This document shows, piece after piece, positions 17,001 through 64,000 of a DNA stretch of 64,000 nucleotides (its first letter is position 1; the number at the start of each line of letters is the position of its first letter). Source of the stretch: a virus. The DNA lies in IMG/VR virus record IMGVR_UViG_3300017960_001054, positions 1 through 64,000 of that record. One strand, given 5' to 3'. The translations under genes and the position numbers were made by a program. Below the pieces are notes generated by a model that was not told the origin of the DNA, ran no database searches, and worked only from the letters and a program-made list of their open reading frames with translations.

Positions 17001-20000
17001 GCACGGGTGTTTGCCTACTCGGAGACGGGGTTCCCCGATCTTGATTCGAGTTTTGAGTCTGACCCGCGGCCAGCGGTGATTGCCACGGTTCTTCCGCTGC
17101 ACGAGTTTCCCATCCGTGACGATGGTTTGCCGGACGTATCGCAGTTAGAAGCGAACGGCGGAGAGTTGCCAGACCTGACGACTGGCGATTCCGACTTGAT
17201 CACGCCTGCGTTCACTACCTTCGATCGTGACGACCGAAGGTTTCCCCAGATAGCGATTGGGCGTCCTACGGGAGAAATCATCGACATCGTGTCCGCTACC
17301 AGCGTGAACATTGGGTTTGGGGACTTTACTGTTTCCATACCTCAAAAGGTGTTTGTAGGAGAGGTTCTCCAGGGCTGCATCCTCACGTTCGTGACTTCAA
17401 ACAATTCGACTGGCGATCCTATCCTCGATTCGACTGAGATTCTTGAGGCTGGCGATGAGCCCGAGGACGCGACGCCGCTCACGCTGGAGCGCGGCGATAC
17501 CATCTTCATTACGCCGCCGGACGTGGACATTGAACCGGCCGATCCCTCGGAGAACGAGCAACGGGCTGCGGAGGTAAAAGGACTCCCAAGCTATCGCGTA
17601 GACTTCGATCTTCGTGTGAACGATGGCGATGGTGTGTATGAGGACAACACGCTGCCGTCGATCCTCGATCCCAGCATCTTCTTCCTCAAGGAGCTACTAG
17701 GCCAGAAGCCTCCAGATCCACTCAGTCATCTGGAAGCTGAAGTGAGCTTCCGCAACAGCTTGACCGATCCTCTGGAGATCCCCGCGCTTACGGGTGGCTA
17801 TACGAACGACTCGGGGGACTACACGCTTCCGTATCTGTACGTCACGAATACGGAAATCGATCGCTTGGGTGAGGCAAAGGCAGCCTTCGCGACGATCGTG
17901 AGTACCGATGCCCCCGCTCCTCGGGCTGTGTATCCTGATGAGATTCAAGGAACGGATGGGCAAGTCCTCGCGTCGTTGTCGTTCGGGGGCGAGCAGCCTG
18001 CGGCGTTGCTCACGAGCCTGGATGCTACGCCCGTTACGACTGCCGGAGGCTACACACCGGGCTCGGGAGTGGGTGACGTTGCGCCTTACGATCTGCTCCT
18101 CATCGAGACTCCACAGAGCGAGATTCCGATAGGAGCGCAAGGCATCATCAACCTCGGGACGGTTGAAGGCGGCGCCTCTGGAAGTCGGCTTCATCCTGCG
18201 CGCTTCGTGACGGCGACTTCGGCAGGTGCGCGTTTTCGCTACGAGTTTCTGGCGATGCAGACCTACGTTAACCAGCCGCCGACTGTGGCTCCTCCTGGCA
18301 TGGTGGTTTCGGTAGCCGGCCCGACTACGACGTTCGATGTCACGTCTGTCTCTCCAGGTTTCATCGTGTTCAACGACGGGAATCCGCCTCCGAGTCCGAC
18401 TGGCGGTCTCAATGACATCGTTGATCCGGGCGGACCCTTTGCCTACCCGGCCAACGACAACCGCATTCGGATCAACATTTGGACGGCAGACGATACGGTC
18501 AATCCGGTCGTGTTCGTGGGATACATCGAGATCGCCATGAATGGCGTCGGAGTCCCCACGGCAGACGCACCATTCAGTGGCCTTGGGCCTCAGACGATCA
18601 CATCACCGCCGCCCTTCTTCGATCAACAAACGCTCAGTTTCCAGACGGCTGCTCCGTTTCTCACGGTGGGGTTTGGGCCGACCGACGTACCAGAGGACAT
18701 CTCGAATCCGGGGTTCTCACGGCCGCTCTGGTTCACGGTCGATGTGGACACGACATCAGCGGCTCCGTCTGGCGGAGCAAGCCTGACGGGTTACATTGAC
18801 AACGATCGAACGACTTTCCGTGAGGGCATCGACATGCGCGGTGTTCTCGATCGTGGCACACCAGCGTTGGTGGGACAACCGGTACATGGGCGTCTCAGGG
18901 TCGAGTTTGTGGAAGGCCCTGGCGGTCAGGATGCGATCACGGTCAACAACCCGGCAGAAGTGAATGGCGGCGTTCCGTTCACATTCTTGAATCGAGAGTT
19001 TTCGTTCCCGACCATAGGCAGTTTCGATCTCAACACAGGGCGTGGATCGATCAAGGTCATGGGGTTTGAGGGACACGGGAACACGCCGTTGCCCTCGACC
19101 GGGGAAGTGGTCTTCTCGGCCATTCCGTCTTGGAGTCAGGACGAGAACGGGACGATTGCCTACGGCACCGGTACTTCGGCAGCAGCCACTTTCAACCCGG
19201 ATTTCGACAATCGGGTTGCGGTGCTCACTGAGGCTGATGTGACGAGCGGCAATCTGGCTAATGTGGAGGCTGGCGACATCCTCACCATTGCCAGTAGCGA
19301 CGACACGTCTGCTAGGGCGACCACCAAGGCAGGTACCTACCTAGTCAAGCACGCGATTCAGCCCCTCGCAGGAGGTTGGCCTTTCGCTACCTACGGGCTC
19401 ACGACAAACACCAACCCGATTAACACAGGAGCCGGCTGGTTGCAGGTCCAGTTTCCGAGACTGGTCAGCGTCAACACGCTGACCAAGGAAATCACGATCA
19501 CGTCGGCTCGCCTCGATAACGGAACGGATGCGTGGCCTCCTGCCACAAACCGGATTTATCTCATCCCCGACGTGGCGGACATCGCTTCGGTTGTCAGCGT
19601 CGAGTACACGGCGGTGGACTTTGCCAACGCGGTGTTCACCTACGATGACACCACGGTTGAGGATGCGAACGGAGGGGGTTTGACTGAGGCGGATTTGGTA
19701 GCAGTGGCGGAGGACTCTTTCGTGTCTGGGTTCTGGGCTGCTGAGGTGCGGATGGATCGGGCAGGCGCAGGCTTGCCGAGGAACCTTGTGGGGTATCGGA
19801 CGCCGGGGCCTGACAACACAGCTTACGGCTTCGGAGGAGTCAGGTTTTTCAATCCCAAGGTTCCCGCAAGCACGGCAGTCATCTTGACTTTCGGAGGAGG
19901 TCAGATCATTGAAGGCGGCACACCTGCTGCGAACGAGATTCGTGTTACGGATCATACGCCCATAGTCAACACGTCCTTTGTCAACGATCCCGATGCCATC

Positions 20001-21968
20001 GTGTATCCAAGCGTGGCGGAGAATTTCTTGTGGCGGCTTAGTCAGGCTAACTGGGATTTGATTCATGACGGAGCGGCTCAAGGTGCGGCGCAGGTGAATT
20101 GTCTTTTCCCTGGCGATCAGCTCAATACAGAGACAGCCATTCCGGCATTTCGAGCGCAGGCGGGTGTGTTTCTGGAGCCGTCAATCCCGAGGCCCGTTTT
20201 CGATCTGGGAGGAGTGTCGCCCAAGGTCGTGGACGCGAACAACTCACTGCTCCCGGCTGATATCGGGTTTCGGGATGCGGTGACTTACGGCATGTCGGAA
20301 CCCGAGCGTGTGCGGTTTGAGGTACGTCGCATTCGTCGGTTCCATCTGCCGCTCACCGATGCGTCGCAAGCACTGCTGCCGCTCCAGTACGCGTACCAGA
20401 TTCGGCGTGGGGTGGTGACGACCTATGGCCCAGACACGCTGCCTCCTACGAGTGAGGAGTGGCCTTACGTCATAGAGACCATTGGCGGCACTACTCTAGG
20501 CGACTTCTTGGATGAGAACGTCAACATCAACCCCGGCGACATGTTCCGTCTGCTCGATAGCGACGGAACATTGCTCGATGAGGTCGAGATCGCGGGTATT
20601 CCAGACGAGAATCGCCTGGCTCTTGCTGCTCCGGGGATCTCGGCTGTCAGCGCGGCTAACGTGAACGGAAAGGCTTTCGAGATCTACCTGCGGGCGGTTC
20701 CGGTTCCGCACGAGCAATCGAATGAGCAGCTTCTCGATCTGGTCGCTGACGAAGTGCTGATCGAGCGCACGGCAGACTACGGTGCGCAAACCGGCGGGTG
20801 GGTTCCCATCGAAGCGTCATCGCTCGATCCTCGGCGTGTTCGTGACACGGACGGGAGCGTCAACTTCGCTGGTGCTGGAGTGGAGGAAGGCGACATCGTT
20901 CTCATCGACGGTGCGGGGGATCTGAGCGGACCAGGCGGTATTCCCATCACTGGTCAGGAAAGAGGAGCACGGCCGTTTGGGGATCGTTCTGTTCCGAATC
21001 GGACCGTGGCTACGCCTGGGCAAGAGGTTCCGTTCATCGCGGGCGCTCCGTCTGAGTTGGATGACAACCGGGGGTTCTACCGCGTGTCGGAGGTTGCTTC
21101 TGAGTCGGTGACGATAGATCCCACAACGACCTTCTCTGGAGAGAACGGCGGAAGTTTCATTACGTTTGGCGACCAAGCGGAGTATGCCGTCTACCCAACT
21201 GTGAGCGATTCGACGGCTCCGTTTGCCGATCCTCCGGGCGGTCCGGGGGTGGAAGGGCAGATGGATCTGAGGCCCACGTCGTTTGCTGGAGAGAACGGGT
21301 CTCCAGCGGATTCGTACTTGGACAATCTGTTCTCCATCGCTCCGTTCTCCTACCGCATCATCCGTCCTTCGGCTCTCCTCTCAGATGAGGCAGTGGATCT
21401 CATCTTGCTGATGCGCGAGCGAACGCTCAGCTTCATCGATGCGTTCAATGTGTTCTTCACAGGCACGAAGGAAGGGTCGTACTTCATCTTCCAGCGCGAC
21501 GCTCACATCTCTGATTTGGGGAATCCTCTTATCCCAGATGAGGGGTTGGGAGTCATGTCCAATGCTCTCATTCAGGGTGTCGCGGGACTGACCCAGATCT
21601 CGCCTTTCGCCAACACGACGGACGCACTCTCCGTGCTCGACCGGCGGTTTTGGGTAGCTGACACGCGTCTCGACGCCGAGCGCCCCCAGCCGGGAGATCC
21701 CACATACTCAACCTTTGAGACGAACGACGGCAACCCCAGCGCCGCTGTGGGCGATGGGCGTCCGGTTCTGCCCGACCGCATCACAGAGGTACTCGATAAC
21801 AGCGATCAATTCCGGCCGTTGCGGTTGTCCTGGCTGAATTTCCGCGTGAACCGAGAGGATGGCATCTTGGTCACGCTCAACATCAGCCGTAGTCGGTTTT
21901 CCAAGAACAGGCGCAGGCAGATTCGCCAGCTACAGCAGGCCAAGTCTCTAGAGGATGCGCAGTCATGA
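11064..21968 (+). CDS. Giant 3634-residue baseplate/tail structural protein, unknown
   Basis: One uninterrupted frame of 10.9 kb. The sequence is beta-rich, acidic, nearly Cys-free and modular. Near residues 632-725 is a module with FTAEEIATSLDAVI, then YGEIEVG and AAALGFLPGW. The same kind of module (AALGF pattern) occurs in the gp25-like protein at 25922. Near 1376 and 1479 are two tandem copies of a domain (GKLLRVGEFPFYI and GYLLEIGGYPFII, each followed by N-x-TT-[VI]-[ED]). A helical region around 1720-1900 carries an Arg/Lys cluster (RTRKRVRRKPLRYESFGRYD). The C-terminus is basic with a short coiled coil. No signal, protease or lectin motif is evident. It lies between spike and wedge genes, so a scaffold-like baseplate or tail-tip element is my inference. 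The start at ATG 11064 has only a weak ribosome site. Confidence 0.62.
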   Translation: MGFPLDGFVLRAPRTAPSNAISTDEAVNGVERDFKPPVTSAFGGGEAPELVEVAADQYRAAVLLRPDDGQTEYLIWAANTADLSTLEIFEADSDDGSIRALYGTLEVENQVSDPDPEVYEDGTLRFYVSDSTNASIAAILQFKIARGDTDDTLVLTEGFYDFNPVTSIVTITDEATIQALSGGFSPLRRDRLGSLRYTRAAVRFWWSKNDRYATRFQWNGLTQRWEPLKGTAPRNLGTLLADGTYTAIPNPNVPAGEYLPGNSVDPDSYSMIRVGVRPDSGSTPVAEPVSVTGYGGILVVADDEVEEYDFPTNAPTAAGVMGQSSGELLWNPGFVNLFAGQSVFYCYQSFLTEGDAEAVGKLETSEEEPLFLSPVPGVTDYPFVRIGNRTPLEALMADTEALLAVTAVSEGQVGIALSTGKLKFSQVDIDKSDPESTTFDTNWLGAEVFYDGLSLTRSPLKTKAPVRLVDGSGDPTTISKDQRLYIPDAEPQPAPGVSGVQFEPDLTGTIPDPAIDPSIRYNKSGLVRDVRGDWDLVLFTTEGRITSVRVVDDPEDEVPRFKFRIPQGRAYIDLNRGSGGSEVILGKKDRQRFAGEPMWFLQSGVQPAVYASEARICSRVRGSFDLVGTERLKFAIQNNIYLWNASADPGGVATSAGGTFTAEEIATSLDAVITGQGSAVVVGSCVVLQTDLEANGKQYGEIEVGWGPVDTKDLSGAAALGFLPGWHVRVSNPPSVDDLHFLPDSGTHLGVYRSPLNISGRRDDIADIGHRDRLEDTTLSENIAQIPVVLLDKIPLEDQPGYDDGVFFRLQTGFFTRDLQNYDEVLHQFGEGKFTWVDENSLFGLVPRPTTELGLGASSLVPDSFRLPGKGLKVSADGGPFVEQELDTDFKLLLDGQPGIATLIQQVGDRVALGARGTVAARGTTFEDNSPDVDFVALGVTEGYQLKLLTGAEAIQGTYIVTADATNPKQLQVKPAFLDDSSSVTWELFVGVDEDTNDPGIVADAHYLQFNHLLEEPFKIRTLTDLGDVPVDATTQEASRLQANISRALASEREIDIRFGQPNGSPTATLRRLEQEFLGEIVNSGLYVPDPSGERFVNEDFSIRVGTKLFTFAAGDLVKVPPPVTFPLTGNIIEVEDGSGLLNFGAEVFAELAQSDVYYVEEFADPAASPTVLPAGVAEYRIDDGLLNFSADDMAQYGGTTTAYFVQQMVTENGQDVTISPLQGSILFNTPIDEQTIVEVEYFQAQVGSGELALDNEGDPIQVIEFVPLFVDQEEATLPPVPPGSIVPADYGRRWDFNPTERTVREDIDATIYVGNNLANVGGAVSPQVEIDYEANQLILKQPVDQNTKVTITYAVNESFGGEQSYTVSTIPVYRPPFRIPANTDEFVLEGDRTGDVIAGKLLRVGEFPFYIKESTYDASANSTTVEIFPPTQPNQEPGTLAPGHDVLSLLTERPIAKQYNTAADDGIWKDIPNEYEPVNRGFVSVTFFGNLVEDAITGYLLEIGGYPFIIAGATLSEDGNRTTIDLTSPTPEGFVVGQDAVRVTIRPVYQPAPMNFLGLGPVSREDVAEVVLFGETDDSGNVLPGRTLKLSTEYTLDYDSGTIDFLAPQQAPLRPGQTLYLRHTRLRVLAPFVRDEVVVTPRYFASYVNGIVPSEDNGILGQVLRAEYTFASPDTWFYRTAPLLDYLGEVGESLQAGISAQLPSRGAVVAIPPAVENDTEGNLGLRAQISDLEDQDRAARTFIEFYNNVILAYEQVLETISGNVIGDRDGKFKFFVGRGKELAPPGYEDAITGNLNTRNIFSELFFAYNRHLIHLTRDPLVEPITAELQGDQIVGDFLDPDRLADLFGEMREIIHNDVDDLVLVSRTRKRVRRKPLRYESFGRYDIAGEPNKFSRLFPERATAFTLTDPGLLADLESDPVDPGVYAFRKKLTKWSFKGGIQRPKRGSTFRKSIGIIGNPVLGQMTGITSITVTDRLPRARVFAYSETGFPDLDSSFESDPRPAVIATVLPLHEFPIRDDGLPDVSQLEANGGELPDLTTGDSDLITPAFTTFDRDDRRFPQIAIGRPTGEIIDIVSATSVNIGFGDFTVSIPQKVFVGEVLQGCILTFVTSNNSTGDPILDSTEILEAGDEPEDATPLTLERGDTIFITPPDVDIEPADPSENEQRAAEVKGLPSYRVDFDLRVNDGDGVYEDNTLPSILDPSIFFLKELLGQKPPDPLSHLEAEVSFRNSLTDPLEIPALTGGYTNDSGDYTLPYLYVTNTEIDRLGEAKAAFATIVSTDAPAPRAVYPDEIQGTDGQVLASLSFGGEQPAALLTSLDATPVTTAGGYTPGSGVGDVAPYDLLLIETPQSEIPIGAQGIINLGTVEGGASGSRLHPARFVTATSAGARFRYEFLAMQTYVNQPPTVAPPGMVVSVAGPTTTFDVTSVSPGFIVFNDGNPPPSPTGGLNDIVDPGGPFAYPANDNRIRINIWTADDTVNPVVFVGYIEIAMNGVGVPTADAPFSGLGPQTITSPPPFFDQQTLSFQTAAPFLTVGFGPTDVPEDISNPGFSRPLWFTVDVDTTSAAPSGGASLTGYIDNDRTTFREGIDMRGVLDRGTPALVGQPVHGRLRVEFVEGPGGQDAITVNNPAEVNGGVPFTFLNREFSFPTIGSFDLNTGRGSIKVMGFEGHGNTPLPSTGEVVFSAIPSWSQDENGTIAYGTGTSAAATFNPDFDNRVAVLTEADVTSGNLANVEAGDILTIASSDDTSARATTKAGTYLVKHAIQPLAGGWPFATYGLTTNTNPINTGAGWLQVQFPRLVSVNTLTKEITITSARLDNGTDAWPPATNRIYLIPDVADIASVVSVEYTAVDFANAVFTYDDTTVEDANGGGLTEADLVAVAEDSFVSGFWAAEVRMDRAGAGLPRNLVGYRTPGPDNTAYGFGGVRFFNPKVPASTAVILTFGGGQIIEGGTPAANEIRVTDHTPIVNTSFVNDPDAIVYPSVAENFLWRLSQANWDLIHDGAAQGAAQVNCLFPGDQLNTETAIPAFRAQAGVFLEPSIPRPVFDLGGVSPKVVDANNSLLPADIGFRDAVTYGMSEPERVRFEVRRIRRFHLPLTDASQALLPLQYAYQIRRGVVTTYGPDTLPPTSEEWPYVIETIGGTTLGDFLDENVNINPGDMFRLLDSDGTLLDEVEIAGIPDENRLALAAPGISAVSAANVNGKAFEIYLRAVPVPHEQSNEQLLDLVADEVLIERTADYGAQTGGWVPIEASSLDPRRVRDTDGSVNFAGAGVEEGDIVLIDGAGDLSGPGGIPITGQERGARPFGDRSVPNRTVATPGQEVPFIAGAPSELDDNRGFYRVSEVASESVTIDPTTTFSGENGGSFITFGDQAEYAVYPTVSDSTAPFADPPGGPGVEGQMDLRPTSFAGENGSPADSYLDNLFSIAPFSYRIIRPSALLSDEAVDLILLMRERTLSFIDAFNVFFTGTKEGSYFIFQRDAHISDLGNPLIPDEGLGVMSNALIQGVAGLTQISPFANTTDALSVLDRRFWVADTRLDAERPQPGDPTYSTFETNDGNPSAAVGDGRPVLPDRITEVLDNSDQFRPLRLSWLNFRVNREDGILVTLNISRSRFSKNRRRQIRQLQQAKSLEDAQS

Positions 21969-25921: not shown

Positions 25922-27088
25922 ATGACTGTCGATTTCCAGATCGGTTTTCCTTGCCCGCATCTCACCATTGAGGAGCGGGTAGCCCTAGGGGAAGATCGCC
26001 GTTCTCTGGAGACTCTTCAGCCGGTTACGTCAGGGGACTTTGTTCGGATTACGGCAAACGATGACGTGGACATTCCGAAGCAAGGTCTGGTTTCCTCTGC
26101 TCGGATTGCGGCAAAAGCTCCCGGTCCGTTTACTATCCCTTGTGGACGGAATCGCATTACGATCAGCAATGCTCGCGGGTCACTAGAAGACTTCGTGCTT
26201 CCTGTTGGTGTGCGTGTCGAGGCGGCACGCGTGGTCGGGCTTCTCTCTGCGGCTTTTCTGAATGCCCAGCTTGGCATCTTGCCGGTAAGTCGCAATGGTG
26301 TGTTGGTTTTGACGGACACGGACGATGCGGGGCCTCTTTCTCGCATAGACGTGCGCGGGACCGCTGCTGAAGCGTTGGGGTTCACGGGACAGATCGCGAG
26401 CCGAGGCCGACAGGTATACCCCGGCTGGGAGATGGCGGAGCGCGAAGATCTAGTCACCGCAACGAGCATCAATCAGTTTGTGAGCATCACGACTCGGTAT
26501 CCTCGTTTCGTTACGCCAATCAAGGCCAATCCCGTTTTCAAAGTCACCTATGCCACGATTCAACAACGGTGTCGTCGGTGTTCGATGACTGGAATCGAGA
26601 ATGACTACCGCTTCGACACTCAAGGACTCGCGCTCCTCGTACAGAACGAGGATCTGTTGAACCAGGCGCTGATCAAGATCCTCCTGACGAGACGGGGGTC
26701 CAACCCTTACCACACGTACTATGGCTCAAGACTGTCCGATTTCCTCGGCAACAAGTCAGTCAATCGGACGACGATTGGCGTCAACGAGGATGTGATTCGG
26801 ACGGTCGATACGTTCAAGCGTCTACAGACTCTCACCGGACAGTTTCAGGCAATCACCGCTCAAGAGCGGTTGTTCGCTGTGTTGTCGATCAATGTGATTC
26901 CGAAGGCAGATGATCCCAACGTGTTCAACGTGGTCATCACCGGCACCAATGCTTCGGGAGACCCGGTGACTCTCACTACAGTGTATGTTGCCCCCGGAGC
27001 AGCGGCACTTGTGGGAGCCAGCGGGAAATCCCTAGGGCTCGGGGGTGTTGGGTTGAAGGAAGATATCACCAGAGGGGATGTCTTTTAG
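25922..27088 (+). CDS. Baseplate wedge protein, gp25/W-like, with extra N-terminal module
   Basis: A 388-residue protein. Residues about 210-310 resemble the gp25/gpW wedge family: an RCRRCSMTGIENDYRFD lead-in, then QNEDLLNQALIKILLTRRGS and a YGSRLSDFLG segment. This is the helix-turn pattern of that small protein. Before it, residues about 70-165 form a separate module: RITISNARGSLEDFVLPVGV, a strand phrase NGVLVLTD, and RIDVRGTAAEALGFTG. That module resembles one in the giant protein at 11064. gp25 joins wedge proteins to the tail sheath in contractile tails. J- and I-like genes follow directly, as in P2-like gene order. The protein is two to three times the usual gp25 length. Confidence 0.72.
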   Translation: MTVDFQIGFPCPHLTIEERVALGEDRRSLETLQPVTSGDFVRITANDDVDIPKQGLVSSARIAAKAPGPFTIPCGRNRITISNARGSLEDFVLPVGVRVEAARVVGLLSAAFLNAQLGILPVSRNGVLVLTDTDDAGPLSRIDVRGTAAEALGFTGQIASRGRQVYPGWEMAEREDLVTATSINQFVSITTRYPRFVTPIKANPVFKVTYATIQQRCRRCSMTGIENDYRFDTQGLALLVQNEDLLNQALIKILLTRRGSNPYHTYYGSRLSDFLGNKSVNRTTIGVNEDVIRTVDTFKRLQTLTGQFQAITAQERLFAVLSINVIPKADDPNVFNVVITGTNASGDPVTLTTVYVAPGAAALVGASGKSLGLGGVGLKEDITRGDVF

Positions 27089-52613: not shown

Positions 52614-55600
52614 ATGACAACAGATTTCGGACCCGGAGTTTCTCGCACCCTTGAGGCGTTGGCGCGTCAGTTTCAGATCACTGTTTTCCAGGCTGGAAAA
52701 CCGCCGCTGGACTCAGAGATTAATCTGCTCCAGCAGGCTGACTCTGAGGCATTTCAGCAGTTTGTCCGCAGCCAGATCCACTCAGGGTTTTTCCTCGATC
52801 CAACGCGTCCTCAGGATGACTTCGTAACCGATCCTCTCAACAGCAATCAGTTTCGTTTCGGTCAGCAGAAGCGCGATGACAATGGTGCGGTAGAGGAGCT
52901 AGCTCCGATCGTCTGGGCGAACGTCAACGGGATGATCATTCCGGTGGTGGGGACGGCCAACACCGAGGCCGGGGCCACGGACAACATCGTTACCCTCAAT
53001 CCGCCGCCCGACTCCGATACTCGGATCGATTTCATCTTCCTAGAGGCGTGGCGCGTCCTGGTTGCTCCCAACCCTTCGCCTGACAACAAGCCCGCGGCAG
53101 ACAAGATCTGGAAGTACGGCAACGTCGAGTACGGACAGACCAACATCGATGATGATCTGATCGATCCCGCGATTGGGTTTGAGACGACGGAGCGCGTCCA
53201 GATTCAGTATCGCATTCGCGTCGTTGGAGAGGGCTCGGGAGCTGGTGTGAGCCCGGCGCTGGATGTGTACCCGGATGGTCTGGATGACCCCAATGTCCGC
53301 GCTCAGGGGCCTTTGAGCACCCCGAGCACGCAGGCATACGCCGTCTGGACCAACATGCGTGAGGAGCTAGGAGATCCTAGCTTGTGGCGTGCGGGGAACG
53401 GAAATCCGACCAACGACTTCGGGACGATAGACGGCTACATCTATGCGATCCCCATCTGCGCGATCTTCCGGCGCAACAATCAGCCGTTCGTGGCGGTCAA
53501 CCTATCGGGAAATCCGAACCAAAACGGAGCTTTCAATCGGAATCCATCTGCTGCGCTTCTGACGAATCCGCGGGAAGGGGCCAAGCTGCTCACGCAGATG
53601 ACTTTGGTCAACGACATGGCGGCGGCGCAATTCACCCTGGATACGGACATCGAAGTAGACAATCTCATCGGTTCTGGGTTCGATGACTCCAACCACACAC
53701 TTTCACAGGTGTTCATGGTCATCGACAATGAGGTCATCGGGATCTCTTCCATCGACACGACCGTATCTCCTGCTACTGTTCGTGTTCCTGCCGGTGGTCG
53801 TGGTCGTTGGGGGACTGACCCGTTGTTCCACGGTGGCCGTGAGCTACCTGGCAATGTCGTGGGGTCGGGAACGCCGGTCTACTTCTTCAACACGAGACCT
53901 GGAAGCATCGGGAAGTACGCTGACGAGATTCACGAAGACGATTTCCTCGACATGCGACGGGGCGTCAACCTGGGCGATTGGGATTACGAGCGCCTGATCT
54001 TGCACAACGTGTCGGCTCTCATGCGCAACCGACTGCGCTCTACGTGGAAGCAGTCGGGTGTTCCTGGCGGAGATACGGAGGGAGTCTTGGTTCAAGAGGT
54101 TGACTATCTCGACCAAGACGGCGCTACTCCCAACCCGAACGGGACGGAAGCCCTGGACGGCCCGGATGGTATCCGTGAGATCTGGAGCGATGCCGCTACC
54201 ATCCAGACACGTGTCACGTCGTTGCTGGACAACGATGGCACGATGAGCAGTGGTTTCATCCAGACCTTCGACGACTTGACTTTCTGGGGTGCCGGTGCGG
54301 ACTTCAAGCCAGCGGGCTTCATGAACAACTTGAACAACACGACGCCCGGCTTCATGAACGGGACGACTATCTTCATGTACATCGGTGGAGATAGCGGCAG
54401 TGTTGGCGCACGAAAGACGTTCCGTGACGGCACGACTCGTGCGGTTCGCTTCATCAATCCCAAGGAATTCTGGAAGGCTGCGGACGCCTCGACTTCCGAA
54501 GTGGGAATGCAGCATCCCGTGACGCTTCTGTGGACGAGCACGGATCAAGCGAACGCGGGCGTGCAGACGGCCGGTGCCGGGCTCCAGGCTCTCATTCCAG
54601 CAGGACCGGGTGAGACGCCCTCCGAGCATCCAGGGGCCATGTATCCTCTTCGCTCGTTGGATTTCGAGAAGCCCTTTATCGTTCTCGGAGGGGTCGTCAA
54701 CAGCGTTCTCAATCTCACGGGCATCGATCCGACCGCCGACTTGCACGATAACAGCACCGATCCGGGCACGATTCCGGCAGGCGAGGGAGAGATCGAGCTT
54801 ACGGGCTTTGACTTCGACGCGGCAGGGGACTGGTACAGCCTGACAAGCAGCGGCGACTTTGCCAACGATCCGAGCTTGGTCGTGTATCCGTTGGTCCGTG
54901 GCTCGCGAACCTTGTACGACATGCTCACTGCGGGCGGCAAGGATGAAACGGGATCGTCCTCTGAGCTTTACCTCATCATGTATGGGGATGATCAGAGCAC
55001 GCAGAACAATGGAGCCTTCCAGGTCATCGGCGCTGGAACGGTTGGCTACACGACCAAGACCACGGGCGCGGTCAATCGTTTGCGTGTACGATTCTTGAGC
55101 GAAGGGGTCACGCTGTTCGATGTGACTTCGACCGGCACCCTGTCGGCCGAGGGGCGCTCCATGGAGCACAACGCTGAGGATGGCGAGGGCTCTGCTTCTG
55201 GTCCGGCGGCGATGACCATTACGTTGACGGACATCGAAGCGGTTGCTGGCGGCGGCGCAAATCCGTGGAATGCGGCCAACATCAACCCGTTGACCGCTCC
55301 CGGCAAGACTCTGGAGGAACCGTACAACTACAAGTGTCTCGTCAACATGACGTTGCTCTATCACCCTGGGCGTGGAGGAATGGCGCGGGTTGCTGACAAG
55401 ATCGAACGGGTGACGATGCAGAGCCCTCCGGCTCAGATCCTACAGCAGACAGGGGTTGCTCTGGATTCGACATTCCCGGCTGCTACGGGAGCGCCAGGGA
55501 ATCCACCCGAGGCAAACTTCACGAAGGTTCACATCCAAACGTGGAATCGCCTTCCGAGCCTCGGGCTCGATGCCCCGACAGCACCAGCTTACGGTGGCAA

Positions 55601-58232
55601 CGTCGTTCTGAATTCCGAGATTACGCGTGACACGGAGGCTTTCTTCGATCGTGGCTCCAAATCGTTGCTGTTCCGTCCGTTCCAAGATCTGAGCATGACC
55701 ATGCAGGGTGTCACGACGGATGTTCCGCAGACACTCTTTGGTCCCAGCGGCTACCCGAACCCGGCTCTCATCCCGAACGGATGGGATGGTCCAAAGGACG
55801 ATGCTCAGATCTTCACTGCGGGTCTCAAGATGGGCTACGCGGTGCCGCATCAGTGGATGCCACGATTCGGTCGGCAAGACATTCCCTACTACCAGGACAA
55901 AGGCCCGGCATACGGGATTGGAAGGTTCTTGGATGGAATCAGCCATCTGTTCACGGATGGAACGGATGTCACCAATCCGGTCTTCTACGTCATCGGTGGA
56001 GCGGACAACCAGTCTGGCGGTAACTTGGTCACACGAATGTTGCTCCAGACGGGCACGACTTCAGGTTTCAAGTACGGTCAGTATGGAACGATCACGGGAC
56101 CGACGACTCCAGCGTACCAGGGTCGTTTGACCAGCACGATTGGTACGGGAACGCCCGAAGCGGCTGAGGTCACGAGCTATCTCGCGAGTGTCACGTCGAG
56201 CGACTTCGGCAAGGGATTGACCGGCATCCAATTCCCGCCCTACCTTGGGATGGCTCGCCTCTACGGTGTCTACGATCGACGTGACTTCGTGGCAAAGGGT
56301 GGCGTCACTTACGACACGGATCGGGTGACTCCTCTAGCGAGCAACGCGGTCAACCTGTTGCGTCGTGACGCACGCAAGCAGACTCTCTTCTTGTGTGAGG
56401 ATGGTGCCTACGATCTCACGGGTGTCCGGGGCGATCACACGTACATCATTCCGTTCGATGCCATTGACATCAACAAGTCTCCGTCGTACATCGCTGGCGA
56501 AACGCCCGAGGATCTGGAGTACGTGGTCGAGTTTACGTGCTTCGGTTTCGCCCGCGGTTGGGTCACTGAGAACAACTTTGTCATGGCTCGACGCCACAAC
56601 GGCGAAGGAACGCTCGTCTCCGACACGGACAATCCCGAGCTAGAGAATCTCCGCATGACCATTCCTCATGCGGCTCCTGAGTCGAGCGTGTACGTCGCCT
56701 ATGAGCGGACTGTCTACCAGGGTGACCCATACATGACTCGTGCGGGTGCGACTCGGACGACTTCGGACTACGAACACACCTACGGGCAGATCGCTCAGTC
56801 GGATGCCTATGGGCTCAATACGAGCATCCAGCAATTTGATGCCGCTGGAGTGCAGATTCCCGAGCGGCCCAATGCACGTTCGTTCCAGGTACTCGCGTCC
56901 CTGGACTTCTACACGACGCTGGGAAGCGGGAACATCGGTGGAGCGCTCTATCCGGGCACCGAGACGGACGTGTGCTACACGGAGGACACCCCGATCGCTT
57001 CGACGCGGACTCCTCCGTTGGTAGATACGCCTGCGTTCCGTGTGCTTCCCAGGGCGTTCTCGGAGGGACAGAAAGAGAACGTCAGCCGGGCAAGACTCGA
57101 TCTGCGCATCGATGGCAACAACGCTACGTTCAACTTCGGCACATCACACGTCGAGATCAGAAAGCTCGACGGGTCACTGATTCTTTTCACGGCATTCAAC
57201 GGTGTCACGGTTCAGCCTGATGAGTTTGATGCGTCTTCGCCGGATGAGGTGGTCATTGCAAAGGAGTTGACGGCCAAGATCAACGCACGGACGGAGCTAC
57301 TCGATACGCTGGTAGCTCAGAACGATCGCGATTCACAGGTCATTCATCTGATTGCACGCCCGGTGGGTGAAGAGGGCAACGGCATCCGGGTGTCCATCAA
57401 CGACACCACGAATTTCACGTTGCTCGTGCCCACGACGGGTGAAGAGACCGTCGATGCCGTGATCACTTCCGACTTCATGTCGGGCGGCATGGATTTGAGG
57501 ATGAACGCGGGCAACGGCGGCACTAAGCTGGACTTGTCGGGCATGATCGAACGATTCCCTCTGGGGATTCTGGCGAGAGACCAGGACTTCATCGGAGAGA
57601 ATCCTCTGGGAGACACGGCGAGTGCTGTCCAGACGACTCTGGGCGGCATCCGGCCCAATCAGCAGTTGCTACCCCTGACGGAGAGCGGTGGAGAGGAATT
57701 CACACCGTTCACGGGTGGACCGGGAGAGCTAGCCGGACAAGGCGACGGTGGAATCCTTCAATACGAAGCGTACACGGACACGACTCCGGGCGGATCGAGG
57801 AAGTATCGTATCTTCCGTGGCGGTGGTTCGGTGTTCGTGCTCAGTGGCAAGAACCCCGGTGGTCCGATCGATTGGGTGAGCGGGGATCTGGCGGGAGCGT
57901 TGCAGCCTGTTCTCAAGGGAGGGTTGCTCGCCTGCAAGGCACTCCTTGTTCGGAATTTCGAGGAGGTTGCTTTTGCTACGGAGGACCAGACGACAACGGG
58001 CGATGAGATCCAGATGGTGGTTCTGACGCACGGCATCTTGGGTGACGGCAACGTGACGCAAGAAGGTGTCGAGATAGACGGCATCATTTCGCCCACGGGA
58101 TATGGAGAGGGGCTCACGGCGTCCGATCGCTACAGGCTCAGCGGAAAGCCGATGTATACGGGTAGGGTGCGTGTGACTCCAGACCCGGCAACGATTCCTC
58201 TGGCTGTGTATCCTGGAAGAGATAGCGAGTAG
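52614..58232 (+). CDS. Very large fibre-type protein, paralogue of the 41692 gene
   Basis: An 1872-residue protein; GGAG in GCGGAGTTGAGCCATG is its ribosome site. The N-terminal 300 residues match the protein at 41692: VFQAGKPPLDSEINLLQQ, QIHSGFF, IDFIFLEAW, YGNVEYG, RVQIQYRIRV, DGYIYAIPI, FRRNN. The middle is long and beta-rich with Gly/Asn loops. Near 1545 lies a module (VVIAKELTAKINA, VIHLIARPVGEEGNGIRVS) resembling the one inserted in the paralogue. The C-terminus has LSGKPMYTGRVRVTPDPATI. Such N-terminal blocks probably serve to attach to the same baseplate site. No enzymatic motif visible. Confidence 0.65.
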   Translation: MTTDFGPGVSRTLEALARQFQITVFQAGKPPLDSEINLLQQADSEAFQQFVRSQIHSGFFLDPTRPQDDFVTDPLNSNQFRFGQQKRDDNGAVEELAPIVWANVNGMIIPVVGTANTEAGATDNIVTLNPPPDSDTRIDFIFLEAWRVLVAPNPSPDNKPAADKIWKYGNVEYGQTNIDDDLIDPAIGFETTERVQIQYRIRVVGEGSGAGVSPALDVYPDGLDDPNVRAQGPLSTPSTQAYAVWTNMREELGDPSLWRAGNGNPTNDFGTIDGYIYAIPICAIFRRNNQPFVAVNLSGNPNQNGAFNRNPSAALLTNPREGAKLLTQMTLVNDMAAAQFTLDTDIEVDNLIGSGFDDSNHTLSQVFMVIDNEVIGISSIDTTVSPATVRVPAGGRGRWGTDPLFHGGRELPGNVVGSGTPVYFFNTRPGSIGKYADEIHEDDFLDMRRGVNLGDWDYERLILHNVSALMRNRLRSTWKQSGVPGGDTEGVLVQEVDYLDQDGATPNPNGTEALDGPDGIREIWSDAATIQTRVTSLLDNDGTMSSGFIQTFDDLTFWGAGADFKPAGFMNNLNNTTPGFMNGTTIFMYIGGDSGSVGARKTFRDGTTRAVRFINPKEFWKAADASTSEVGMQHPVTLLWTSTDQANAGVQTAGAGLQALIPAGPGETPSEHPGAMYPLRSLDFEKPFIVLGGVVNSVLNLTGIDPTADLHDNSTDPGTIPAGEGEIELTGFDFDAAGDWYSLTSSGDFANDPSLVVYPLVRGSRTLYDMLTAGGKDETGSSSELYLIMYGDDQSTQNNGAFQVIGAGTVGYTTKTTGAVNRLRVRFLSEGVTLFDVTSTGTLSAEGRSMEHNAEDGEGSASGPAAMTITLTDIEAVAGGGANPWNAANINPLTAPGKTLEEPYNYKCLVNMTLLYHPGRGGMARVADKIERVTMQSPPAQILQQTGVALDSTFPAATGAPGNPPEANFTKVHIQTWNRLPSLGLDAPTAPAYGGNVVLNSEITRDTEAFFDRGSKSLLFRPFQDLSMTMQGVTTDVPQTLFGPSGYPNPALIPNGWDGPKDDAQIFTAGLKMGYAVPHQWMPRFGRQDIPYYQDKGPAYGIGRFLDGISHLFTDGTDVTNPVFYVIGGADNQSGGNLVTRMLLQTGTTSGFKYGQYGTITGPTTPAYQGRLTSTIGTGTPEAAEVTSYLASVTSSDFGKGLTGIQFPPYLGMARLYGVYDRRDFVAKGGVTYDTDRVTPLASNAVNLLRRDARKQTLFLCEDGAYDLTGVRGDHTYIIPFDAIDINKSPSYIAGETPEDLEYVVEFTCFGFARGWVTENNFVMARRHNGEGTLVSDTDNPELENLRMTIPHAAPESSVYVAYERTVYQGDPYMTRAGATRTTSDYEHTYGQIAQSDAYGLNTSIQQFDAAGVQIPERPNARSFQVLASLDFYTTLGSGNIGGALYPGTETDVCYTEDTPIASTRTPPLVDTPAFRVLPRAFSEGQKENVSRARLDLRIDGNNATFNFGTSHVEIRKLDGSLILFTAFNGVTVQPDEFDASSPDEVVIAKELTAKINARTELLDTLVAQNDRDSQVIHLIARPVGEEGNGIRVSINDTTNFTLLVPTTGEETVDAVITSDFMSGGMDLRMNAGNGGTKLDLSGMIERFPLGILARDQDFIGENPLGDTASAVQTTLGGIRPNQQLLPLTESGGEEFTPFTGGPGELAGQGDGGILQYEAYTDTTPGGSRKYRIFRGGGSVFVLSGKNPGGPIDWVSGDLAGALQPVLKGGLLACKALLVRNFEEVAFATEDQTTTGDEIQMVVLTHGILGDGNVTQEGVEIDGIISPTGYGEGLTASDRYRLSGKPMYTGRVRVTPDPATIPLAVYPGRDSE

Positions 58233-60599: not shown

Positions 60600-62297
60600 A
60601 TGCCACGAAAGCTCGGACGTAAGGAATTTCCCTCTGCCCACAGCGCCGACGACTTCACCTACCAGGGTCGTCCCGCGAAGGACCAGGACGACTTCGGCAG
60701 CGACGTTGGGCTCGCTGACATGAAGTGCGTCAACCAGTTTGGCAGCAACAACAACAAGTACTACCACGCTGGAGTGGTGAAGGCGTCGGACGGTTCGTGG
60801 TGGGTCTACTTGGAGTGGGGTCGCGTCAAGTCAGGCAAGTCATGGAACGGAGGGTTCACGGGACAGGACTTCCAGTTTTGGGCGTGTACGTCGGAGAGCG
60901 AAGCTCGCGAGGCTTTCGAGAAGCAGTGCCGCAGCAAGAACATCAAGCGGCTGGAGCAGAAGGACGGCATCTGGGTTGGTCGGAAGGGCAAGGATGGTTA
61001 CGTCGTCCAGAAACTCGCCACTCGTGAGAACGGGCTGCCCGATGCCTACACGATCAAGGATGCAAGCGGCGTTTCTGGCGAGAAGAAAGCCGCCAAGAAG
61101 AAGGCCACCAAGAAGACCGCGAAAGCGAGACCAACGCAGAGCTACCATCCGCAGGAAGTCAAGCTCGTACAGGATCTCGTTGGCGGTACTCAGACATACG
61201 TGCAGCGAGCCGTCACCGAATCCGGTGGCGTGACTCCGACGCTCGATGCCATCGAGGAGGTTCGGGATACGCTCATTCCGAAGGCGATGAAGCACATCGC
61301 TCGCGTGTCCAAGAACACGCCGCAGGGCGCGATGGCTCAGGCAGCCTACGATCACAGGCTGGCCGTTGCTTGCACGAAGGACAAGAAGCTACAGGAGCTT
61401 TCCAACTACGTGGCGTCTTTGGTACCGCGACCAGACCCAGGGCGGTCGGCGGACGCAGAAACGCGAGCACTGGCTACGGTGTTGTCGTCGGGCAACATTC
61501 TCACTCTACAGCAGGATCTCGATACGTTCGTGTCTGCGCTGGAGAATGAGGATTTCGACGTGGCCGATCAGAGGCAAGTCGTGGGCGTCGATGTGGACGC
61601 TCGCCTGAATGCGCAGGTTCGTTGGCTCGATCCCAAGGGCAAGATGGGCAAGTGGGTCGAGGCTACCTTCTGTGCGATGAGCAACAATCGCCACAGCCAT
61701 CTGCGTGGGCGGCTGGTGATCAAGAACATCTTTTCGGTGGTACGGCCAGACCGCGATGCCAAGTTTGTGGCCGCGGTCAAGAAGGTGGCGAAGGCACGGA
61801 AGGGCAACTTCAGTCACTTCGCGCGCATGCAGCCGAGGCGGCGGCAAGACCTGTCGGATCTCTCAGATTTGGCGGCGCAAGCCAATGTGTTTTTGGGCAT
61901 CCATGGAACGCGCGCAGTCAACGTGGCTCCCATCGTCCAGACTGACTTGCGGTTGCCTCGATCACTGCCGGGTGCTCTGCTCACGGGAGCGGCTTTCGGC
62001 CACGGGATCTACGAAGCGACGGACTGGCGCAAGAGCCATGGCTACACGGGCCACTCTTCCTCCTATTGGGCGAGCGGCGGCACGATTCGAGGCCGGGGAT
62101 GGTTCATGTTCCTTCAGGACGTGATCATGGGGCAGGCGTACATGTGTCGCTCGACGGGTTCGTGGTCCACGCCGCCGAACAAGTGCGACTCGGTTGCGGC
62201 CTATCCCGAGTTTTCCAGTGTCGTCAACGATGAGCACATCGTGTTCGATCCCCACTATCAGAGGATCAGGTACATCATCGAGGGCGACATCAAGTGA
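60600..62297 (+). CDS. WGR-domain poly(ADP-ribose) polymerase-like ADP-ribosyltransferase
   Basis: A 565-residue protein; AGAGGA precedes ATG 60600. Residues about 40-118 form a WGR domain (YYHAGVVKASDGSWWVY then LEWGRV), the part that senses DNA breaks in PARP1-type enzymes. A Lys/Ala-rich linker (160-180, KKAAKKKATKKTAKAR) looks nucleic-acid-binding. A helical region (185-320) takes the place of the PARP regulatory domain. The catalytic domain (about 370-565) has HGTRAVNVAPIV with His435, LTGAAFGHGIYEATDWRKSH with Tyr471, and NDEHIVFD with Glu545. This is the H-Y-E triad of poly(ADP-ribosyl)ating PARPs. Expected reaction: ADP-ribose from NAD+ to protein or nucleic acid. It probably acts inside the infected cell; targets are unknown. 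It is unlike T4 Alt/Mod enzymes, which are R-S-E type. Confidence 0.85.
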   Translation: MPRKLGRKEFPSAHSADDFTYQGRPAKDQDDFGSDVGLADMKCVNQFGSNNNKYYHAGVVKASDGSWWVYLEWGRVKSGKSWNGGFTGQDFQFWACTSESEAREAFEKQCRSKNIKRLEQKDGIWVGRKGKDGYVVQKLATRENGLPDAYTIKDASGVSGEKKAAKKKATKKTAKARPTQSYHPQEVKLVQDLVGGTQTYVQRAVTESGGVTPTLDAIEEVRDTLIPKAMKHIARVSKNTPQGAMAQAAYDHRLAVACTKDKKLQELSNYVASLVPRPDPGRSADAETRALATVLSSGNILTLQQDLDTFVSALENEDFDVADQRQVVGVDVDARLNAQVRWLDPKGKMGKWVEATFCAMSNNRHSHLRGRLVIKNIFSVVRPDRDAKFVAAVKKVAKARKGNFSHFARMQPRRRQDLSDLSDLAAQANVFLGIHGTRAVNVAPIVQTDLRLPRSLPGALLTGAAFGHGIYEATDWRKSHGYTGHSSSYWASGGTIRGRGWFMFLQDVIMGQAYMCRSTGSWSTPPNKCDSVAAYPEFSSVVNDEHIVFDPHYQRIRYIIEGDIK

Positions 62298-63565
62298 TGC
62301 GCACGCACTCTGGCAGCCCAGCCAAGAAACTCTGCCAGGCTGAGGGTGTTCTTGGCGCGATTGCACGACGCACAGGATGGTACGACGTTATCGGGAACGT
62401 ATCCTCGTGTGTTGTCTATGCGGTCGACTCCCAAAGCTGGGTTGTCTCCACAGTAGGCACAAGGAGAACGAAACAGAGCCACGCAAAAAGCGCTGTCGAG
62501 AGCGAATTCGTAGCCACGGTTGCTTGCGCTCCACTTGCATTTTCTGAGTCGCTTTCGCTCCGCAGGCGTGGGTGCAGAGGTCGAGGGCGAGACAACGGGG
62601 CTCCAGTCATTCAATGGTACAATTCGAGATATCCACTGAAGGAATTCTTTGACCGACTTGGTTCCTTTTGCGAGATTGCAGGTTTTGCAGCAGGGTACGA
62701 TGTTGTTTTTGACGTAGCCCAGACGATTGTCCAATCGGTCGATTCCGTTGCAGCGGTAGAAACCGTAGAGCGACGTTCTGCTCACAATTCGAGGTTTCGC
62801 CCCGCAGTAGTGGCACGTTTGTTTGAACAGGGTCTCAGCTTCAATGAGCGAGATCTCGAATGGCAGGTTCCGTTTGCGTGCGTTTTTGAGGTAACCGTAG
62901 AATACATTGTTGCGGACGGAGACTCCGAAAGGTTTGCGGGCAGTTTCATCGCGGAGGCAGCCACAACTGCGCGTTGTTCCTTTGTACAAGGTCGAAGACC
63001 CCACCAAAGTCTCTCTGCCGCAGTCGCACCGACAACGATAGGCCCAACCAGGGCCGGATTTGGGCCGGATTTTCTCAAGAACAGTGAGTCGCCCAAATCG
63101 GGTGCCGGACGGGATCGTCGGCGATCGAACACAGCCACAGCTTTTGACCGATCCCGAGCGAAGGCTCCCTGGGAGCACGACGGTTTCATTCCCACAGTCG
63201 CATCGGCAACGAAACGCCGTCTGGTGTTTTCCCGAAGCCGAGGTTTGGGTGACGGGCTTCAGAACTATGAGGTTTGCAAATCTTTTGCCAACGAGATCTG
63301 CTTTGCGGCTACAGCCGCAGCTTCGGGTTCGGGGAAGGTTGCCTCGTGTAACCCAGTGCTCTTTGCCACAATCGCACCTGCACAAACACTGGGCAGGAAA
63401 CGAACCTTTCTTTCCTTGAAACTCAGCAATGACTACGAGGTTTCCGTGACGTTGCCCAACCAATGTTCCCGGTCGGTCCTTCGGCAGTTGGCGCCCTCGG
63501 GTCTTTGCAACGCTGGGTTTCATTCCGTTGTTGCAGATTATACCAGGGGAGACACTGATGAGCAT
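62258..63565 (-). CDS. Double-HNH endonuclease with three zinc-knuckle-like repeats
   Basis: A 435-residue protein, the only convincing gene on this strand. Three repeats lie at about residues 30-205. Each runs G-x-R-[FH]-x-x-L-x-V, then CRCDCG and SCGC (for example CRCDCGNETVVLPGSLRSG). They probably bind metal and DNA. Two HNH-type units follow: CHYCGAKP then GIDRLDNRLGYVKNNIVPCC, and CAYCGDNP then GVDRIDNTRGYVPDNVVPSC. Both keep DR[LI]DN and the second Cys pair with N-x-AK. Phage HNH proteins of this build are usually homing or nicking enzymes. Its 3' end overlaps the PARP gene by 40 bp. The start is uncertain: ATG at 63565, or ATG at 63523 (MKPSVAKTRG), which lies just after a TATAAT box. 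Confidence 0.8.
   Translation of the reverse strand: MLISVSPGIICNNGMKPSVAKTRGRQLPKDRPGTLVGQRHGNLVVIAEFQGKKGSFPAQCLCRCDCGKEHWVTRGNLPRTRSCGCSRKADLVGKRFANLIVLKPVTQTSASGKHQTAFRCRCDCGNETVVLPGSLRSGSVKSCGCVRSPTIPSGTRFGRLTVLEKIRPKSGPGWAYRCRCDCGRETLVGSSTLYKGTTRSCGCLRDETARKPFGVSVRNNVFYGYLKNARKRNLPFEISLIEAETLFKQTCHYCGAKPRIVSRTSLYGFYRCNGIDRLDNRLGYVKNNIVPCCKTCNLAKGTKSVKEFLQWISRIVPLNDWSPVVSPSTSAPTPAERKRLRKCKWSASNRGYEFALDSAFCVALFRSPCAYCGDNPALGVDRIDNTRGYVPDNVVPSCASCNRAKNTLSLAEFLGWAARVRAHHLMSPSMMYLIL
62289..62299 (+). repeat. 11-bp direct repeat, left copy
   Basis: ATCAAGTGATG spans the PARP stop and the following ATG-like triplet. The same 11 bases recur at 63635-63645 in front of the next plus-strand gene. 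The pair brackets the HNH gene, apart from its 3' overlap. Confidence 0.55.
63537..63542 (-). promoter_or_regulatory. -10-like TATAAT box for the HNH gene
   Basis: A perfect TATAAT on the minus strand, 13 bases before the ATG at 63523. No convincing -35 box is seen 16-18 bases upstream. If used, the leader would be very short. Confidence 0.3.
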
Positions 63566-63923: not shown

Positions 63924-64000
63924 ATGACAAACGCAACCTCCACGAAGGAAGCAGTCAAGGACAGCGGAAACTGGCGCGATGCAGTGGTCGATATCGTCGG
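63924..64000 (+). CDS. N-terminus of an unknown gene (cut by window edge)
   Basis: ATG 63924 follows AAGGAG at seven bases, the best ribosome site in the window. The 25 visible codons begin MTNATSTKEAVKDSGNWRDA followed by VVDIV, a polar N-terminus leading into a hydrophobic start of helix. The frame is open to the edge. Too little is visible to name it. Confidence 0.6.
   Translation, partial: MTNATSTKEAVKDSGNWRDAVVDIV

Follow-up and report, generated by a model that had tools for sequence, protein, structure and literature searches.

A gene for a poly(ADP-ribose) polymerase (PARP) with a WGR domain was identified in a 64,000-nucleotide stretch of viral DNA, referred to here as the window (positions 1 to 64,000 of IMG/VR record IMGVR_UViG_3300017960_001054). 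The open reading frame (ORF) at 60600-62297 was confirmed as a genuine gene whose product is a WGR-PARP. With a probability of roughly 60%, this product is a PARP of the DNA-repair type, activated by nucleic-acid ends and catalysing reversible mono- or poly-ADP-ribosylation, in which a WGR domain, a helical domain (HD) and an ADP-ribosyltransferase (ART) domain follow one another. The gene and its parts are as follows:

60600-62297, + strand: WGR-HD-ART PARP gene, 565 amino acids (aa), ATG start (ORF list, Pfam, AlphaFold2, Foldseek, VIA-align)
60654-61052, + strand: WGR domain, residues 19-151, with W73, G74, R75 and NNNKYYH at 50-56 (AlphaFold2, Pfam WGR at 48-114, alignment)
61149-61607, + strand: predicted helical regulatory-like domain (PARP HD), residues 184-336 (AlphaFold2 helices, VIA-align; Pfam PARP_reg unmatched)
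61614-62294, + strand: ART catalytic domain, residues 339-565 (Pfam PARP at 421-532, AlphaFold2, Foldseek, VIA-align)
61902-61904, + strand: codon of His435, PARP1 H862 position (alignment)
62010-62012, + strand: codon of Tyr471, PARP1 Y896 position (alignment)
62232-62234, + strand: codon of Glu545, PARP1 E988 position (alignment; pairs with the Glu of NEYIVY in PARP2)

Domain architecture and predicted fold

Rereading of the sequence bore out what the first-pass annotation had described: a WGR core at residues 73-75, a lysine-rich linker (residues about 151-184, with 9 Lys in 34), and the catalytic positions H435 within HGTR, Y471 within GIYEA and E545 within NDEHIVF, spaced by 36 and 74 residues. 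Upstream of the ATG, at -10 to -5, lies the hexamer GAGAGG. The Pfam PARP profile matched residues 421-532 in hmmscan with an E-value of 5.7e-10 and a score of 39.5 bits (cut-off 26.7), and the Pfam WGR profile reached 22.2 bits (E 1.6e-5) in a six-frame search, above its cut-off of 22. A PHROG search gave one listed match, phrog_23333 ('polymerase', E 3.4e-11), over residues 425-560 only. Matches by phmmer to PDB sequences were weak; the best was PARP2 (E 0.013), with an alignment pairing NNNKYY, WGRV, HG(S/T)R, GIY and E(Y/H)IV.

The fold was predicted with AlphaFold2 from 25 aligned rows (pLDDT 79.8, pTM 0.76), the linker after the WGR domain being of low confidence. Foldseek ranked human PARP1 WGR-CAT bound to a DNA break first (E 9.8e-20, 575 columns), followed by PARP2/HPF1 bridging a DNA break (E 1.5e-17). 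Over model residues about 177-565, VIA-align gave Z-scores of 24-27 against PARP1 to PARP4, with Z about 26 against PARP1 660-1008, a span that holds the PARP1 HD. Because the aligned span covers this helical domain, the layout was taken as WGR-HD-ART although PARP_reg was unmatched; the helical domain between WGR and ART was seen in the predicted fold only. The WGR domain is borderline by sequence and clear in the predicted fold. In BFVD, matches over 553-591 columns were obtained for A0A8D9PE85 (Bacteriophage sp.), A0A7D0KXT7 and a Bodo saltans virus protein.

PARP1 and PARP2 are enzymes that flag broken DNA in human cells. With human PARP1 WGR-CAT, PARP2 and PARP3, its top structural matches and members of the DNA-dependent PARPs (clade 1), the window PARP shares the order of WGR, helical and ART domains and the H-Y-E triad. 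It differs from them in sequence (16-19% identity in the Foldseek rows), in its triad spacing, and in having no Pfam match to zinc-finger, BRCT or PARP_reg domains. The first-pass annotation had named the WGR and PARP folds; since both were found (Pfam, AlphaFold2, Foldseek, VIA-align) and the record is phage-like, its structural assignment stands. It had overlooked the helical domain at residues 184-336, as well as the winged-helix partner, the eraser, the NAD+ genes and the retron relatives described below.

Catalytic residues and selection

Conservation was assessed in an alignment of 25 sequences, comprising the window PARP and 24 relatives. H435, Y471, E545, N543 and R75 were invariant in all 25, and W73 and G74 nearly so. 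G436 and Y482 were likewise invariant and S479 nearly invariant; by motif, we take G436, S479 and Y482 to correspond to PARP1 G863, S904 and Y907. The triad was retained in 14 of 14 phage rows. Between the window PARP and the 73%-identical L015, nonsynonymous divergence (dN) was 0.225 and synonymous divergence (dS) 2.11, the latter near saturation, which at the sequence level indicates purifying selection on the gene.

Relatives and phylogeny

A viral scan with a two-row alignment query recovered 16 loci, 15 full-length and one catalytic-only, on contigs of up to 618 kb. Three of the 15 were 100% copies of the window PARP, which was found at 100% identity in contigs of 372, 497 and 46 kb. A second viral scan added L028. 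A genome scan yielded 16 loci: 3 from Nannocystaceae, 12 from planctomycetes and one Desulfobulbaceae fragment. The WGR profile passed its cut-off in 16 of 18 related records.

The nearest full-length cellular relatives were the WGR-PARPs of Nannocystaceae (Plesiocystis pacifica, Enhygromyxa salina), with 57-58% identity over the full length and the same partner gene beside the PARP at all three loci. They differ from the window PARP in lying on bacterial contigs, and two phage ADP-ribosylglycohydrolase (ARG) queries found no match in their 6-kb flanks. A Plesiocystis PARP is listed in the available part of PMC4245714. In the Desulfobulbaceae fragment (L041), the PARP piece is 65% identical to window residues 408-545, closer there than the Nannocystaceae are overall. 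On a plasmid of Pseudomonas sp. FeN3W (L011), the WGR-PARP gene adjoins a gene annotated as RNA 2'-phosphotransferase.

The final tree, from which the outgroups L009 and L011 were left out on account of very long branches, fell into two groups divided by a branch with values of 100/100. Group A holds the window-type phages and the Nannocystaceae, and group B the other jumbo phages and the Planctomycetota; the five planctomycete PARPs in the tree that are linked to a reverse transcriptase (RT) form a single sub-clade (100/99). Nannocystaceae and Planctomycetota were nested among the phages in the trees. In the approximately unbiased test, however, trees holding the phages together were not rejected (p 0.183 for clade A and p 0.427 for clade B); as neither constraint was rejected, no claim is made on the direction of gene transfer. 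The family was rare in Planctomycetota, with matches in 4 of 392 sampled genomes, two of them full-length and both already in the set. A divergent PARP family common to jumbo phages, Nannocystaceae and Planctomycetota appears to be new here.

Phage PARPs already known

PARP signalling at DNA breaks is commonly regarded as a feature of eukaryotes that turns up sporadically in bacteria. Matches to the window PARP were obtained in 13 of 50,697 GenBank phage records; LR756511 covered 99% of the query, and the other 12 matched in the catalytic part only. The first-pass annotation had proposed a search for WGR and PARP domains together in phage proteins, and this combination was found above the Pfam cut-offs in Klebsiella phage 05F01, XacN1 and Cellulophaga phage phi17:2. 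In the PARP of viral contig L027, the WGR match fell below the cut-off. The proteins of XacN1, 05F01 and phi17:2/phi4:1 differ from the window PARP in their length of 383-426 aa and in matching it over the catalytic part only, at 28-41% identity.

PARPs of phages Aeh1 and phi4:1 are reported in the available part of PMC4245714, that of Aeh1 also in the available part of PMC1266365, and that of XacN1 (BBA65562.1) in the available part of PMC7824862. A text search of the available part of PMC9503650 did not return 'WGR'. Given these published phage PARPs and the WGR-PARPs in the databases, neither phage PARPs nor phage WGR-PARPs are new as a kind. The H-Y-E domain assignment of the first-pass annotation was upheld, whereas its picture of H-Y-E PARPs as a trait of eukaryotes and some bacteria, set against R-S-E enzymes in phages, needs correction, as phage H-Y-E PARPs had already been published. 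The R-S-E motif was not found in the window PARP, whose motif is H-Y-E, and no other ART family was listed by Pfam or PHROG. By description only, the protein was likened to the PARP of Herpetosiphon aurantiacus, a bacterial, DNA-requiring enzyme that makes long poly(ADP-ribose) chains (available part of PMC4245714). The PARP gene itself is only moderately surprising; its links to retrons and erasers add interest.

ADP-ribose erasers and NAD+ genes

An ARG or a Macro protein was counted as an eraser. ARG was found in 11 of 18 records and in 10 of the 12 that are at least 188 kb long; the two large records without it (G007, G008) both carry Macro. An eraser was therefore present in 12 of 12 PARP-bearing records of at least 188 kb searched for both. 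In jumbo phages, the base rates are about 5% for ARG and 56% for Macro (available part of PMC9503650), so that only ARG is informative.

The control consisted of 28 terminase-related records without WGR-PARP (0/28; the same query gave E 3e-260 elsewhere), and ARG was found in four of them. At lengths of at least 188 kb the ratio was 1/6 in the control against 10/12 in PARP-bearing records (Fisher p 0.013), a comparison weakened by small counts, by contigs that are fragments and by rows that are non-independent on both sides. The ARG-bearing control G042 (sample 3300044451) may be the same phage as L021.

In each of the seven clade-B phage records that carry ARG, one copy lay 2.4-7.5 kb downstream of the PARP and on its strand. 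In the 497-kb contig G002, which represents the window's phage type, the ARG (L052 5488-6483, - strand) lies within an NAD+-resynthesis cluster (L052 4262-11939; G002, 376-384 kb) whose other genes resemble those for NAPRTase, NadE and NadD or encode two Nudix proteins, of which one is NtrR-like. Pfam matches above cut-off in this cluster were NAD_synthase, CTP_transf_like, NUDIX, NrtR_WHD and ADP_ribosyl_GH, and NCBIfam gave NAPRTase (1.6e-26), NadE (3e-26), NadD (1.7e-21) and NtrR (3.4e-36). One ORF (L052 8846-9544) had no profile match; from its motifs we presume it to be PncA-like. By reading alone, NrtR- and NadD-like ORFs precede the ARG in G005, and an NrtR-like ORF adjoins it in G006.

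A DNA ligase gene lies two genes from the PARP in phi17:2, adjoins it in LR756511 and, by coordinates, lies within 1 kb of it in G016. In a 595-kb phage, an ATP-dependent DNA ligase gene (L006 9968-11116) directly follows the WGR-PARP; its N-terminus looks WGR-like by eye, and the record gave no second WGR match. About 5 kb past the PARP of a 322-kb phage is a gene for a Ro60/TROVE RNA-binding protein (L028 14987-16588).

Winged-helix partner gene

The next + strand gene with relatives downstream of the PARP, beyond an HNH insertion, begins at the end of the window:

63924-64000, + strand: beginning of the gene for the winged-helix partner, 269 aa counted from this ATG, continuing past the window end (L051 3925-4734) (model, homologue neighbourhoods)

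The partner is modelled with a winged-helix N-terminus and an MraZ/AbrB-like C-terminus. VIA-align gave Z up to 6.6 for MraZ and about Z 3-5 for winged-helix regulators, values below the trust level of the tool, and plain Foldseek on the model found nothing at E 0.001. Homologues follow the PARP within 3 kb in the window-type loci L012-L017 and L028, at all three Nannocystaceae loci, and in clade-B loci L006, L020, L021 and L023-L026; none was found in L018 or L019, and L022 stops 0.3 kb past the PARP. This nearby partner, the eraser in 12 of 12 large records searched for both kinds and the position of the eraser inside an NAD+-resynthesis cluster in the window's phage type appear to be new here.

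In planctomycetes, a domain of the partner kind forms the N-terminus of a reverse transcriptase. The clade-B partner matched the retron RT N-terminal domain both by tblastn (up to E 8e-18) and in profile-profile comparison (99.8%, E 3.5e-30), and window-type and clade-B partners matched each other at 96.2% (E 2.2e-9, 209 columns). A direct link between the window-type partner and the RT domain was weak (profile-profile 28%, E 6e-4), and window-type loci gave no tblastn hit to the RT or to clade-B partner L023. The connection of the window-type partner to the RT runs via the clade-B partners.

The arrangement of DarT-DarG, in which a Macro antitoxin adjoins the ART toxin, was not found: no Macro match was obtained in G000, the window's record, and the neighbour of the PARP is a winged-helix protein. 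In L028, a DarG-like Macro ORF lies about 7.5 kb downstream of the PARP; its score was 26.7 bits, where the cut-off is 250.

Type XIII retron operons in Planctomycetota

An RT gene stands directly upstream of the PARP at seven of the 12 planctomycete loci (L035 from Neorhodopirellula pilleata, L036, L037, L039, L043, L044 and partly L040), preceded by SWIM and HEAT genes wherever the contig extends far enough. Macro follows the PARP directly at five (L035, L036, L037, L039, L042). No RT was present upstream at four loci (L032, L033, L034, L038) with at least 5 kb of upstream sequence.

In L039, the PARP follows genes that PADLOC scored as HEAT-ARM_XIII (E 9.7e-182), SWIM_XIII (1.5e-180) and RT_XIII (3.7e-154). 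A second arrangement was seen in L146, where a canonical WGR-PARP_reg-PARP, Macro, HEAT/WGR_XIII, SWIM_XIII and RT_XIII stand in a row on one strand. L148 carries genes of the RT and SWIM types, a WGR_XIII/HEAT-ARM_XIII protein of 845 aa and Macro; where this stretch ends, a short match resembles a PARP C-terminus. No PADLOC model matched the PARP or Macro proteins tested (L039, L146). The RT_XIII profile matched in 14 of 15 PARP-bearing bacterial genomes; it also matched in 3 of 14 control genomes and matches other retron RTs.

RT, HEAT and SWIM, the combination by which a type XIII retron was recognized (retron types reportedly after Mestre 2020), occurred together in L039 and L146 and not in the window phage and its relatives. 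The planctomycete operons carry a WGR-PARP homologous to that of the phages and an RT winged-helix domain homologous to the clade-B partner. They differ from the phage loci in that HEAT and SWIM queries matched in none of the phage loci read, and RT (RVT_1) was found in only one of 19 phage records, that of L027. Among the literature matches listed, which do not cover most subscription papers, none described a link between retrons and PARP, and a text search of PMC12548924 gave no hit. PARP-bearing type XIII retron operons in two arrangements, often with Macro, appear to be new here. Relatives of the phage PARP are thus housed in anti-virus operons of bacteria, which connects the two.

Interpretation and alternatives

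As a DNA-repair-type PARP, the window protein would dock by its WGR domain on broken DNA or on a nucleic-acid end of another kind, and docking would relax the helical domain. The ART domain (H435-Y471-E545) would then transfer ADP-ribose from NAD+ to itself, to nearby proteins or to DNA ends. The mark would be transient, being taken off by the phage ADP-ribosylglycohydrolase or Macro protein. In the window's phage type, the cluster of NadD, NadE and nicotinate phosphoribosyltransferase would refill NAD+ under a repressor like the ADP-ribose-responsive NrtR, and the winged-helix partner with its MraZ/AbrB-like tail probably positions or regulates the PARP on DNA. The purpose would be the handling or signalling of DNA ends during infection.

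Several results weigh against this reading. The Pfam WGR match at residues 48-114 scored 19.1 bits in hmmscan, below the cut-off of 22, the WGR profile was unmatched in two of the 18 related records (G004, G006), and hmmscan gave no PARP_reg match in the window PARP. Neither ARG nor Macro was matched in the window's own 141.6-kb record; G017 (322 kb), a 13th large record and the source of L028, was searched for Macro only and gave no Pfam Macro; and the ARG of G002 lies about 234 kb from its PARP. The substrate labels of the NAD+ cluster are provisional, because only the TIGR00552 nadE domain passes its NCBIfam curated cut-off. A DNA-ligase partnership as a general rule was rejected, ligase being present in only 5/18 records.

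The retron operons bring up a weapon for defence or against superinfection, which is unlikely. The PARP would then be an NAD+-consuming or macromolecule-modifying effector that stops phage competitors or makes their infections abort; it would be a free-standing counterpart of the type XIII retron operon gene, restrained by partner and eraser. The PADLOC scores ahead of the PARP in L039, the RT upstream (7/12) and Macro downstream (5/12) at planctomycete loci, the second arrangement in L146 and the profile-profile match of the clade-B partner to the RT domain all fit this view; it is opposed by the four planctomycete loci lacking a nearby upstream RT, by the single RT among 19 phage records, by PARP and Macro matching no PADLOC model, and by the weak match of the window-type partner to the RT domain. 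In a broader view, possible though doubtful, WGR-PARP and eraser would be a portable nucleic-acid-end-sensing module common to jumbo phages and the PARP-bearing type XIII retron variant. On the retron side, the WGR domain would meet an end held or presented by the DNA that the RT makes, with the PARP as effector and Macro as brake. On the phage side, PARP and the RT-winged-helix homologue, kept as separate genes without an RT, would be an inter-phage weapon or captured parts that blunt retrons, and the phage would withstand its own enzyme by means of NAD+ refill and an ADP-ribose sensor.

Alt, ModA and ModB of phage T4 are phage ADP-ribosyltransferases that are not known to carry WGR or HD. 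A part in host take-over like that of Alt, with the enzyme packaged or produced early and marking host proteins such as RNA polymerase, is a distinctly improbable role for the window PARP, which differs from this R-S-E class in its H-Y-E triad with WGR and HD. Its gene does lie 2.4 kb past several very large genes in a row, among them one with a baseplate-wedge match, and about 44% of phage ARTs occur in contexts that suggest head packaging (section 3.7.1, available part of PMC9503650). Pfam and PHROG found no fusion to a virion domain, however; the nearest large gene (52614-58232) matched no family, and the genes around the clade-B PARPs look like genes of metabolism or repair. A recently acquired or decaying host gene with no role in infection is very improbable: the 57-58% identity to Nannocystaceae relatives would suit it, and it is already weakened by dN far below dS, by the triad kept in all 14 phage rows and by the partner kept nearby.

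The combination, in one phage family, of the full WGR-HD-ART layout, an eraser and, in one phage type, NAD+ refill makes the purpose of bacterial and phage PARPs open to tests in a simple system. From the retron operons comes a concrete candidate role for PARP in the immunity of bacteria, and the winged-helix domain common to retron and phage offers a physical link between them to test.

Source phage and other features of the window

The window is part of a 141,560-base IMG/VR record (G000), which appears to be a 141.6-kb piece of a contractile-tailed jumbo phage (jumbo myovirus). A contractile tail is indicated by PHROG baseplate-wedge matches and a sub-cut-off sheath-initiator match at 25922-27085. 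Terminase_6N was matched in 5 of 18 records and in none of G000-G002 and G004-G006, G001 and G002 being the long copies of G000; as it is unmatched in G000, the term 'phage' rests on the IMG/VR record, on the baseplate and sub-cut-off sheath-initiator matches and on phage-like neighbours. No tRNA and no Rfam family were found in the window. A 3634-aa ORF occupies 11064-21968 in the tail gene region.

Between the PARP and its partner lies one further gene:

62258-63565, - strand: HNH-type endonuclease gene, overlapping the final 40 nt of the PARP ORF

Over its HNH part, the IscB profile gave 23.8 bits (E 2e-5), far below the cut-off of 175. The gene carries three CRCDCG repeats. The listings of L015 and L028 show no such gene between PARP and partner, and it is probably a homing insertion outside the PARP system. 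About 3 kb past the PARP, beyond the window in the same genome, a GroEL-type chaperonin gene (524 aa, L051 5499-7073) was observed, the L013 copy of which gave a Cpn60 match of E 4.5e-48.

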